Assembly (NCBI GenBank): GCA_002281535.1
Contig: NCGD01000007.1
Coordinates: 1 to 64,000, forward strand
DNA from: Sphingomonas sp. 28-63-12
GTDB taxonomy: Bacteria > Pseudomonadota > Alphaproteobacteria > Sphingomonadales > Sphingomonadaceae
Reading direction: 5' to 3'
DNA: 64,000 nucleotides
The notes under the pieces were generated by a model that saw nothing but the letters and a program-made list of their open reading frames with translations, was not told the DNA's origin and did not search any database. Of the stretch, positions 9,503 through 63,914 are shown in pieces. Position 1 is the first letter of the stretch; each line of letters starts with the position of its first letter. The translations under genes and the position numbers were made by a program.

Positions 9503-10126
9503 ATGTTCACAGGCATCATCACCGATATCGGCACGATCCGGGCGATCGAGCGGCGCGATGACACGCGTGTGGAGATCGCGACCAGCTATGATTTGGCTGG
9601 CCTGGATTTCGGCGCGTCGATCGCCTGTTCAGGCGTGTGCCTGACGGTAGTGGACAAGGCCGCGCCCGGCGAGCCAGGCTGGTTCGCCGCCGATGTCTCC
9701 GATGAGACGGTCCGCCGCACCGCACCGGGCCAGTGGCTCGCCGGCCGCCGCCTCAACCTGGAGCGCGCGATGAAGTTGGGCGACGAACTGGGCGGGCATA
9801 TCGTGACCGGTCATGTCGATGGCATCGGCATGATCGACTCGATCGCCGTGATCGGCGGATCGCATCATCTGTCAGTAATCGCCCCGCCCGAAATCGCGCC
9901 ATTTGTAGCCACCAAGGGATCGATCACCGTCGATGGCGTGTCGCTGACGGTCAACGCCGTCCATGACCGCTCGGATGGATCGACTGCGTTCGATCTCAAC
10001 ATCATCCCGCATACATGGGGGGTAACCGCGCTGGGCGATGTCGTGCTCGGTCAGGAGGTCAATCTCGAGATTGACGTGCTGGCGCGCTATCTGGCGCGGA
10101 TGAAGGATTATGTCGCCGCGCGATAG
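9503..10126 (+). CDS. ribE: Riboflavin synthase alpha subunit
   Basis: The 207-residue enzyme dismutates two molecules of 6,7-dimethyl-8-ribityllumazine into riboflavin and the pyrimidine precursor. The start MFTGIITDIGTI is diagnostic. Two lumazine-binding barrels repeat the pattern ASIACSGVCLTVV / GSITVDGVSLTVN, and HIVTGHVDGIG begins the second. It follows ribD closely. The next gene, ribB, begins 56 nt downstream, and that gap carries an inverted repeat. Confidence 0.96.
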   Translation: MFTGIITDIGTIRAIERRDDTRVEIATSYDLAGLDFGASIACSGVCLTVVDKAAPGEPGWFAADVSDETVRRTAPGQWLAGRRLNLERAMKLGDELGGHIVTGHVDGIGMIDSIAVIGGSHHLSVIAPPEIAPFVATKGSITVDGVSLTVNAVHDRSDGSTAFDLNIIPHTWGVTALGDVVLGQEVNLEIDVLARYLARMKDYVAAR

Positions 10127-10132
10127 TTTTAA

Positions 10133-10170
10133 TGTGATATCTGCGCTTGACGATCACACTGCGATGTGAT
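10133..10170. promoter_or_regulatory. Candidate operator: three TGTGAT half-sites before ribB
   Basis: The ribE-ribB gap holds an 18-bp inverted repeat, ATCACA-N6-TGTGAT (10153-10158 and 10165-10170), plus a third half-site TGTGAT at 10133-10138. A TTGACG resembling a -35 hexamer lies at 10147-10152 directly beside the left arm. No convincing -10 is seen; TTACTG at 10170-10175 is weak. The arms face outward compared with a CRP site, and the distance from TGTGA to the next TCACA is 16 bp rather than 6, so CRP is unlikely. The adjacent gene encodes an HTH domain, making autoregulation the natural hypothesis. Confidence 0.5.
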
Positions 10171-10182
10171 TACTGCCCAGGC

Positions 10183-11484
10183 ATGAGCACGCAATTGATC
10201 GAAAAACTCCGCAGCCTCGTCACCGATGGTGGCATGTCCCGGTCCGGCCTCGCCCGGGCGGCCGGCCTCCATGCCAACACCTTGCGCGATCTGGAGGCGC
10301 CCGACTGGAACCCCACCGCCGAGACGCTGCGCAAACTTGAAACCTTTATCTTTTCGAACGATGACACGCCCGCGCTGGTGCCGATCGAGGAAATTATCGA
10401 TGAGGCGCGCAACGGCCGGATGTTCATCCTGGTCGATGACGAGGACCGCGAGAATGAAGGGGATCTGGTCATTCCGGCGCAGATGGCGACGCCCGATGCG
10501 ATCAACTTCATGGCGACGCATGGCCGCGGCCTGATCTGCCTGTCGCTCAGCAAGGCGCGGGTCGACTCGCTCGGACTTGAACTGATGAGCCGCGCCAATG
10601 GCACGCGCCACGAAACCGCCTTCACCACCTCGATCGAGGCGCGCGAAGGGGTGACGACGGGTATTTCCGCTGCCGACCGTGCAAGGACCATTTCGATCGC
10701 GATCGATTCGTCCAAGACCCGCGACGATATTGTTACGCCCGGCCATGTCTTCCCGCTGGTCGCCCGCGAAGGTGGGGTGCTGGTCCGCGCCGGCCATACC
10801 GAGGCGGCGGTTGATGTCGCGCGGCTCGCCGGGCTCAACCCGTCAGGGGTAATCTGCGAGATCATGAAGGACGATGGCACAATGGCGCGGATGGACGATC
10901 TCGTCTCGTTCGCGCGGCTGCATAATCTCAAAATGGGCACCATTCGCGATCTGATTGCCTATCGCCGCAAGCACGACCATCTCGTCGAGAAGCGGGCTGA
11001 AATGGCGTTCCAAAGCCAATGGGGTGGCGACTGGCGGGCGATGACCTTTTTCAACAAGGCCAGCGGCGACGAGACGATTGCTTTGGTCAAGGGCCGGATC
11101 GACCCCGAGATGCCGACCTTGGTGCGGATGCATACCGCGTCCTGGTTCGTCGACATGTTCGGTGAAGTGTCGGAACGGTCCGGGCTGTTGTCGCGATCGA
11201 TGGAGGCGATCGCCGAGGCCGGATCGGGCGTCATCGTCGTTATCAACCGGCCAATGAAGGACAGCGTCTCACGCTTCATCCGCCTGCGCGCCGAGGGCAA
11301 GGGCGCCGGTGCACCCGAGGTCGAGGAACTGCGCGACTATGGCGTCGGCGCGCAGATTTTGGCCGAACTCGGGGTGCAGGATATGGTCCTGCTGACGAAC
11401 ACGCATCACACGCTGGTCGGGCTGGATGGCTATGGGCTCAGCATCGTTGGCGAACGGCCGATCCCGGGAACGGGTGGGGAGTAA
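10183..11484 (+). CDS. ribB: HTH - DHBP synthase - degenerate GTP cyclohydrolase II fusion
   Basis: The 433-residue protein has three parts. Residues about 5-55 form an XRE-like helix-turn-helix (SRSGLARAAGLHANTLRDLE, then WNPTAETLRKLE). Residues about 65-265 are 3,4-dihydroxy-2-butanone-4-phosphate synthase with intact catalytic motifs DDEDRENEGDL (85-95), THGRGLICL, TPGHVFPL and AGHTEAAVD. Residues about 280-433 align with GTP cyclohydrolase II, but the zinc-cysteine segment is absent: RMHTASWFVDMFGEVSERSG stands where three cysteines are expected. The enzyme should make the four-carbon riboflavin precursor. The HTH could sense or regulate. The ATG at 10183 was preferred to a TTG 12 codons upstream because the longer version would run into the inverted repeat. 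Confidence 0.9.
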   Translation: MSTQLIEKLRSLVTDGGMSRSGLARAAGLHANTLRDLEAPDWNPTAETLRKLETFIFSNDDTPALVPIEEIIDEARNGRMFILVDDEDRENEGDLVIPAQMATPDAINFMATHGRGLICLSLSKARVDSLGLELMSRANGTRHETAFTTSIEAREGVTTGISAADRARTISIAIDSSKTRDDIVTPGHVFPLVAREGGVLVRAGHTEAAVDVARLAGLNPSGVICEIMKDDGTMARMDDLVSFARLHNLKMGTIRDLIAYRRKHDHLVEKRAEMAFQSQWGGDWRAMTFFNKASGDETIALVKGRIDPEMPTLVRMHTASWFVDMFGEVSERSGLLSRSMEAIAEAGSGVIVVINRPMKDSVSRFIRLRAEGKGAGAPEVEELRDYGVGAQILAELGVQDMVLLTNTHHTLVGLDGYGLSIVGERPIPGTGGE

Positions 11485-11629: not shown

Positions 11630-12049
11630 ATGGCCAAGATCCTCATCGTCGAAGCGCGCTTTTATGATCACCTCAACGACATGCTGCTCGACGGCGCACG
11701 CGCAGCGATCGAGGAGGCAGGGCATGCGCATGACACGATCACCGTGCCCGGTGCGCTCGAAGTACCCGGCGCAATCGCCTTTGCCGCCGAAACCGGGGGC
11801 TATGATGCCTTTGTCGGGCTTGGCGTCGTCATTCGCGGCGAAACCTATCATTTCGAAATCGTGGCGGGCGAAAGCGCGCGCGGGTTGATGGCGCTGAGCA
11901 TGGATGGGCTCGCCATCGGCAACGGCATCCTCACGGTCGAGAACGAAGCCCAGGCGCTGGCCCGCGCCCACCCGGCGGACAAGGACAAGGGCGGCGAGGC
12001 GGCCAAGGCGGCGCTCGCCATGCTGGCGCTGAAAGCCCGTTTCGCCTGA
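11630..12049 (+). CDS. ribH: 6,7-dimethyl-8-ribityllumazine synthase
   Basis: The 139-residue enzyme condenses the pyrimidine and the four-carbon DHBP unit to lumazine, and usually assembles as an icosahedral or decameric shell. Motifs are [17 protein letters not shown] (substrate Phe site), [11 protein letters not shown] and [16 protein letters not shown] with the catalytic His. The C-terminus is [12 protein letters not shown]. It is the last riboflavin enzyme of the cluster; the usual nusB neighbour is absent and a small membrane-protein gene follows after 4 nt. Confidence 0.96.
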
Positions 12050-62200: not shown

Positions 62201-62859
62201 AATTTGCCGGCATCATCTTTGATTTCGACGGGGTGCTGATCGACAGCGAATTTGTCGGCAACCGCCAGATTGCGGCCTATCTCAGCCGCGTTGGGCACCC
62301 CACCACCGTCGAACAGTCGATGGCGCAGTTCATGGGGCTGGCCGACCGGGATTTTCATGCCGCCGTCGAACGCTGGATCGGCGGCCCGCTGCCCGATGAT
62401 TTCCACACCGCGCGCGCAGCGGAGGATCTGCGGGTCATGACCGAAGGGATCGATCCGATTGCGGGCGCCATCGCCTTCGTCGAATCGCTGCCGGCACGCC
62501 TGCCAAAGGCCATCGCCTCGTCGAGCTCGACGCGCTGGATCAGCCGCCATCTCGATCATATCGGCCTGCGCGATCACTTCGGCGACATGATTTTCAGCGG
62601 CAAGGAGCATGTTGTGCGCGGCAAGCCTGCGCCCGATCTCTATCTCCACGCTGCGGCGGCGCTTGGGGTCGCGATCGAGGACAGCGTCATCCTGGAAGAT
62701 TCGCCGGTCGGCGCCACCGGGGCGGTGGCGTCGGGTGCCTATGTCATCGGGCTGTGCGCGGGCACCCATTGTGGGGGGGGTCATGAACAGGTGCTTCGCC
62801 AGATCGGGGTGAGCGCCATCGCGCATGATTTTGCCGAGGTCGCCCGGCTAATCGCCTAG
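62197..62859 (+). CDS. HAD-superfamily phosphatase
   Basis: The 220-residue protein has HAD motif [12 protein letters not shown], motif II SSSS and motif [19 protein letters not shown]. It is probably a phosphosugar or nucleotide phosphatase. It converges with ribA. Confidence 0.87.
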
Positions 62860-63914
62860 AATTCGTGGCCGGTGCGATCCCGCTTGGTGGCCAGATAGCG
62901 TTCATTATGCGGATTGGCGGGCAGCTTATGCGGCACGCGCTCGGCCACCCGGATGCCGGCCGCTTCAAGCTGGGAAACCTTTTGCGGATTATTGGTCAGC
63001 AAGCGCACTGATCGCTGGCCAAGCAGCGCCAGCATCCGCGCTGCCACTGCAAAATCACGCGAATCGACCGCAAAGCCCAGCCGCGTATTGGCGTCGACCG
63101 TATCGAAGCCCTGATCCTGGAGCGCATAGGCACGCAGTTTGTTGATCAGGCCGATGCCGCGGCCTTCCTGGCGCAGATACAGCAGAATTCCCCAGCCGCT
63201 TGCCGCAATCGCGCTGATCGCGGCGTTGAGCTGCGGCCCGCAATCGCATTTGAGGCTGCCGAGCACATCGCCGGTCAGGCATTCGCTGTGCAGCCGGACC
63301 AAGGGCGCTTTGCCGTCGGGGGTACCGATCAGCAAGGCGACATGCTCGCCCGGCATTTCGGGGGTACGAAAAGCGACGATCTCCGCCGATTCGGCGCCTG
63401 CAACCGGCAAGCGGGCCCGCGCGGCAATCGTCAGCCGCACGGCATCTTCATGCCGATCGATATCGGCCGGGGCGATCACCAGATCGGCGCTGCCGCCGGG
63501 AATCACGAAAAAGGCCGGCAATATGCCCGCCAATGTCGCCAGCCGAAGGGCGGCCATGGCGGCCGGCCGATCGTCGATCTCGGTGGCACGATACGGGCCC
63601 TTTAGCGGCGTCTGCAAATCGAACTGCGGGTCGGCCAGTGCGGTGGCGGCGTCGAAATCGAGCCAGGCAACGCGCTCGATCATCACCGGGCATTCCGGCG
63701 CCGCGGCGGGGGCCTGGTTTGACAGCTTGAGCGTTACCGCGCGGCCCGACGAGATCAGCACCGGCGCGGTGCGGGCGGGGTCGAACGCCGCCAGCCGCCC
63801 GGCATCGGCGGTCTCGATCGCCAGCAGCGCCAGCGTACCGCTATCGGTGCGAATCGCGACAGGCCAGCCGCGGCGCAGCGAATCGATCGCCTGGGCCACG
63901 GCGCGGGCGCTCAC
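62856..63914 (-). CDS. ribA: GTP cyclohydrolase II with degenerate DHBP synthase half
   Basis: The 352-residue protein has an active C-terminal GTP cyclohydrolase II with zinc cysteines C212, C223 and C225 in [21 protein letters not shown], plus [14 protein letters not shown]. The first ~170 residues align loosely with DHBP synthase but lack DDEDRENEGDL. It supplies the first step of riboflavin synthesis. GTG start overlaps the xth stop. Confidence 0.93.

Follow-up and report, generated by a model that had tools for sequence, protein, structure and literature searches.

We found that a riboflavin gene in the window, the 64,000-nucleotide stretch of Sphingomonas sp. 28-63-12 DNA analysed here, encodes a protein that combines an enzyme domain and a DNA-binding-type domain in a single chain, as identified by domain searches, and that a dyad with the features of an operator stands directly before it. 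From comparison with relatives we infer, for binding, direction and signal alike, that this protein, HTH-RibBX, works as a trigger enzyme, binding its own promoter and chiefly repressing it, a reading to which we assign a probability of about 0.78. HTH-RibBX is predicted to make the four-carbon precursor of riboflavin, and its N-terminal helix-turn-helix (HTH), as a dimer, would bind a dedicated operator that consists of the dyad and an upstream half-site and overlaps its own core promoter. Plentiful enzyme, or enzyme together with a ligand, would then repress ribBX, and also ribH where the transcript is shared.

The gene occupies 10183-11484 (+) and encodes 433 residues (ORF and domain searches). 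An XRE-like HTH (residues 1-60; 10183-10362, +), assigned from profile searches, conservation and structure models, is followed by a DHBP synthase domain (residues 69-260; 10387-10962, +; PF00926, E 4.5e-83) with RibB motifs that are intact by sequence, and then by RibX, a GTP-cyclohydrolase-II (GCHII)-like domain (residues 271-425; 10993-11457, +; PF00925). Alignment to the RibBA structure 4i14 placed no RibX cysteine at the zinc-cysteine places, and we therefore refer to the protein as HTH-RibBX. The initial annotation had described an XRE-like HTH ahead of an intact DHBP synthase, an arrangement that PF00926 confirms for the DHBP synthase and weak HTH profile matches support for the HTH; its gene name, ribB, was right as to the DHBP synthase and too narrow as to the rest, since the protein is not RibB alone and continues into RibX. 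RibA is encoded separately from RibBX, at 62856-63914 (-), and carries the SECLTGD..KCDCG zinc motif; by eye, the roughly 150 residues ahead of its cyclohydrolase part resemble a worn RibB half. Upstream of HTH-ribBX lies ribE (riboflavin synthase; 9503-10126, +; ORF and context) and downstream lies ribH (11630-12049, +; ORF), which is possibly co-transcribed with ribBX; both names were given by eye. The end of ribE holds a hairpin that resembles a terminator and has a T-rich tail (10111-10125; 0.1 expected), and this could separate transcription of ribE and ribBX. A start at the TTG at 10147 was considered and is unlikely, since many relatives have the frame closed within a few codons 5′ of the ATG.

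Residues 1-67 matched two Pfam families, HTH_3 with an E of 0.00025 and HTH_31 with an E of 0.00027, in each case scoring short of the curated Pfam cut-off, and phmmer matched the HTH to DdrO (6jq1) with an E of 0.0018. Most of the top Foldseek matches to a model of residues 1-69 (pLDDT 78.6, 14 sequences) were XRE proteins, including HipB, C.AhdI, DdrO and SinR, with probabilities up to 0.99, a best E of 0.14 and none under 0.001. Gapless alignment to DdrO and conservation point to HANTLRDLE (residues 30-38; 10270-10296, +) as a putative recognition helix; the HTH model called helix there at residues 33-36 only, and a full-length model (pLDDT 82.2, pTM 0.76) called no helical residues in it. 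Across the 118 HTH+ rows of the comparison described below, R35, W42, N43, P44, T45, T48 and L49 were invariant and unforced by the pattern used for classification, and H30 was present in 118/118 at a place where that pattern permitted H or S. The invariance of L29, N32 and L34 is uninformative, because the classifying pattern imposed it. Loss of the basic surface of the recognition helix in homologues, a possibility named in the initial annotation, was not what we found, as R35 and H30 were kept in every HTH+ row.

A gap of 56 nt (10127-10182) separates the stop codon of ribE from the ATG of HTH-ribBX, and the ATCACA-N6-TGTGAT dyad and third TGTGAT noted there initially were recovered at 10153-10170 and 10133-10138, respectively. 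The dyad, ATCACA-CTGCGA-TGTGAT, is our proposed operator on the basis of a genome scan and comparison with relatives; the upstream half-site (TGTGAT, +) lies 32 bp from its right arm. A scan of the complete genome (3,477,382 bases in 54 contigs) gave a single exact dyad and a single TCACA-N6-TGTGA; one other place, at 57770 of contig C22, was one mismatch off the exact dyad. By chance, the window would be expected to hold 1.46 matches with two or fewer mismatches to the dyad, and so the weight of the evidence comes from relatives and not from the window.

We searched 296 genomes from the order Sphingomonadales at the protein level and obtained matches in 289. The window's own family, Sphingomonadaceae, contributed 213 of the 296 genomes and other families of the order 83. 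The HTH+ subset that we took from the search matches listed comprised 118 distinct upstream regions (26 of 30 loci, 13 named loci and 80 listed rows, less one duplicate), and 27 distinct HTH-less Sphingomonadaceae regions served for comparison; L001, L114 and L014 were dropped as duplicates. The core CACA-N6-TGTG was exact in 112/118 HTH+ regions and had a single mismatch in the remaining 6, and none of the 27 HTH-less regions came within one mismatch, all being two or more off; 4.4% of base-shuffled regions reached one mismatch. The best match to the 12-base dyad in the HTH+ regions had no mismatch in 52, one in 36, two in 20 and three in 10, compared with at least four in all 27 HTH-less regions, and of dinucleotide-shuffled HTH+ regions about 1.6% reached two or fewer mismatches and about 11% reached no more than three. 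When inverted repeats were counted over the same 118 regions without any motif, TCACAT-N4 (67) and ATCACA-N6 (52) ranked first. Among the 121 rows of a tree, from which L049, L225, L226, L055 and L069 were left out for want of an anchor, two or fewer dyad mismatches were found in 39/44 HTH+ rows, the other five failing this test, versus 1/77 HTH-less rows, which were searched over a longer stretch. With the core within one mismatch in 118/118 HTH+ regions, absence of the dyad where the HTH is kept, a possibility that had also been raised at the outset, was not what we found. The HTH-dyad pairing is a family-wide trait, common in Sphingomonadaceae.

We aligned the 67 regions whose dyad is 17-26 nt ahead of the start. 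A TTG stood at -15 to -13 and a TA at +8/+9 from the dyad centre, and by their position we take these as the predicted -35 and -10, separated by a 17-nt spacer that is the dyad. At the -35 place, TTGACA with one or no mismatch was found in 25/67 regions versus 1.9% in controls. The window has a -35-like TTGACG (10147-10152, +), placed by position and by the TTGACA-like matches of relatives, and a weak -10-like TTACTG (10170-10175, +), placed by position in the aligned relatives; a strict promoter scan found no promoter before HTH-ribBX in the window, where the -10 is weak. For 35/108 regions, the distance from dyad to start exceeds 30 nt, and no clear -35 signal stands there. The first ATG after the dyad falls at +20 or +21 in 49/67 regions, and a Shine-Dalgarno-like sequence with up to two mismatches occurs in 21/67 versus about 25% in controls, which is slightly commoner; together, ATG spacing and Shine-Dalgarno counts suggest a leaderless ribBX message. 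Since the dyad fills the spacer between -35 and -10, its occupation would exclude RNA polymerase and thus repress by blocking it.

The upstream half-site, TGTGAT with one or no mismatch, was present in 53/67 aligned promoters versus 2.2% of control windows, directly upstream of the -35; its distance to the dyad's right arm was most often 31 bp, or three turns. Its position before the -35 would leave room for activation at a low enzyme level. Restriction-modification controller (C) proteins exert two-phase autogenous control, and C.AhdI and other C proteins were among the Foldseek matches to the HTH. By analogy, the half-site could aid polymerase while enzyme is scarce, with the filled dyad repressing once enzyme is abundant; we consider two-phase control of this kind rather unlikely, and against it the half-site is mostly unpartnered, with a partner half at two or fewer mismatches in 9/53. 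The reading that we prefer remains autogenous control that is mainly repressive, for which the amount of enzyme, ribulose 5-phosphate or a flavin on RibX are candidate signals.

The site was nearly private to ribBX. The strict pattern TCACAT-N4-ATGTGA was found in 111/296 genomes, mostly once per genome, compared with 5 genomes for the reversed pattern; it does not capture the dyad of the window itself, which has a variant form (TCACACTGCGATGTGA). Among the strict sites listed from genomes with a known ribBX place, 37/41 lay within 150 nt upstream of ribBX, and all four that were checked among 27 further Sphingomonadaceae strict sites listed were before ribBX. The remaining 4/41 stood elsewhere, near genes that look unrelated by eye, and with a single site in the window's genome a wider regulon is unsupported. 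In 24 HTH-less Sphingomonadaceae genomes the strict site was found nowhere; six genomes of family f8 carry strict sites. One HTH+ genome has, on the far side of the dyad, a divergent gene (L257, 2030-2542, +) that resembles a flavin reductase by eye.

Both the privacy of the site and its tracking of the HTH, in presence and in absence, argue against a separate regulator that binds the dyad while the fused HTH serves otherwise, for example in protein contacts. Unlike the sites of a global regulator, this one is almost confined to a single gene, and the spacing of its half-sites is opposite to that of CRP boxes, whose consensus arranges the half-sites the other way round. We rejected a CRP-like box because of this arrangement and judge a separate regulator improbable. 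The dyad could also act as an RNA hairpin, as ATCACAT-N4-ATGTGAT is able to pair; we hold this for very improbable, since the core is near-invariant with no compensatory exchanges in four pairs over 118 sites (which were picked by consensus and are hence biased), the dyad precedes the likely transcription start, and no Rfam match was found in the window. A relic HTH that no longer binds DNA would fit the low Pfam scores and is just as hard to credit, given the seven invariant residues from R35 to L49 in 118 rows and the retention of the site.

We next considered the origin of the fusion. Of 25 genomes from other families of the order, 24 gave a match, and no RibB-domain match started before residue 54. 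Likewise, when 385 genomes were sampled at class level (287 matching), starts at residues 1-5 were found, among the matches listed, in Sphingomonadaceae only. Five early-starting class-level matches were examined as candidate HTH-RibB fusions outside this family and rejected: traced backwards, all five enter the 3′ end of ribE, either out of frame or across a stop codon, and they had no HTH and no dyad better than four mismatches. A quick tree placed the HTH-less Sphingomonadaceae inside the HTH+ group, and this nesting makes a single gain of the HTH followed by several losses likely. The best tree has 12 changes, of which well-supported branches force only three independent contrasts, too few for significance in a tree test of joint loss of HTH and dyad. 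No HTH homologue in trans was found in the 17 HTH-less Sphingomonadaceae genomes searched. The nearest relatives of the HTH in the outgroup families checked were two HTH-only matches, each in a reading frame other than that of RibB: L248 (G013:C18:6514-6681; 43% identical; frame of 94 residues) and L249 (G034:C1:1173777-1173947; 40% identical; frame of 498 residues). Both are possible sources of the fused HTH. An HTH-less RibBX from family f8 (L215, G054:C3:27684-28745) falls among Sphingomonadaceae in the tree and sits in a genome with other RibBX copies, possibly through horizontal transfer. Two near-complete Sphingomonadaceae genomes of genus g2, G157 and G243, gave zero RibBX matches, for which loss, auxotrophy or a search miss are possible explanations.

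The operon context also differed with the HTH. In 26/27 HTH-less Sphingomonadaceae loci, no more than 70 nt separate ribE from the codon of RibB residue 69 downstream of it, and outside the family ribE is upstream in 47/50 loci, in two of them at 0.8 and 2 kb. Among HTH+ loci ribE is upstream in 16/44 and missing within at least 1300 nt upstream in 28/44, versus 1/27 HTH-less Sphingomonadaceae loci; HTH+ ribBX has often departed from the ribE operon. In 38/44 HTH+ loci ribH is downstream of ribBX, and control of ribH by HTH-RibBX is plausible. In many other bacteria, riboflavin genes are controlled by the FMN riboswitch, an RNA switch. The absence of such a riboswitch, stated in the initial annotation for the DNA before ribD and ribB, holds in the window, where an Rfam scan gave no family at gathering score and no RF00050 before any rib gene, and extends to the window's genome and all 213 Sphingomonadaceae genomes (0/213 under the stricter filters of a large search). 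The 16/296 genomes with an FMN riboswitch all belong to families f2, f5 and f8, that is 16/83 outside Sphingomonadaceae.

The closest analogue in logic, as far as the parts of the sources consulted go, is archaeal RbkR, a single protein with an N-terminal HTH that both catalyses a step of the riboflavin pathway and regulates genes (PMC8305020) and that is a predicted regulator of the riboflavin operon (PMC10746257). RbkR is a riboflavin kinase of archaea, whereas the chain described here, for which regulation is predicted, carries DHBP synthase and RibX, lacks the CTP-dependent riboflavin kinase domain of RbkR, and has its site almost only at its own gene. BzdR likewise joins an N-terminal DNA-binding domain to an enzyme-derived domain; according to the portion consulted, its shikimate-kinase-like domain has lost activity and senses benzoyl-CoA (PMC3602430), in contrast to the RibB motifs of HTH-RibBX. 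RibBX proteins of Shewanella and Aeromonas share the fusion of RibB to a GCHII-like domain without GCHII activity, with no HTH described in the part of the source available to us; for S. oneidensis, regulation of RibB by X is stated there, with the mechanism given as unknown, which makes RibX a candidate sensor (PMC10012899). The Wolbachia proteins wBmxR1 and wBmxR2 are, in the section consulted, DNA-binding regulators of ribA and also of type IV secretion genes (PMC3518464), and so resemble HTH-RibBX as riboflavin-gene regulators in an alphaproteobacterium and differ as separate proteins unfused to an enzyme. A term search of one review (PMC12542839) returned no helix-turn-helix, RbkR or autoregulation, and one of another (PMC13028884) no DNA-binding or RibBX. 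Among the matches listed from the open-licence literature, a scope that mostly leaves aside subscription journals, we found no report of an HTH-RibB fusion.

More tentatively, the Sphingomonadaceae enzyme may have replaced riboswitch and operon control: its catalytic domain or RibX would sense the state of flavin or of ribulose 5-phosphate, and the protein would set its own, probably leaderless promoter in two phases through half-site and dyad. If this were true, the orphan RibX domain would gain a role as a sensor. The dyad provides a precise candidate operator and a handle on the role of RibX, with HTH-less relatives of the same genus as natural controls. What we predict is feedback on a vitamin pathway through a loop that is protein-based and self-contained, in a family in which no FMN riboswitch was found.
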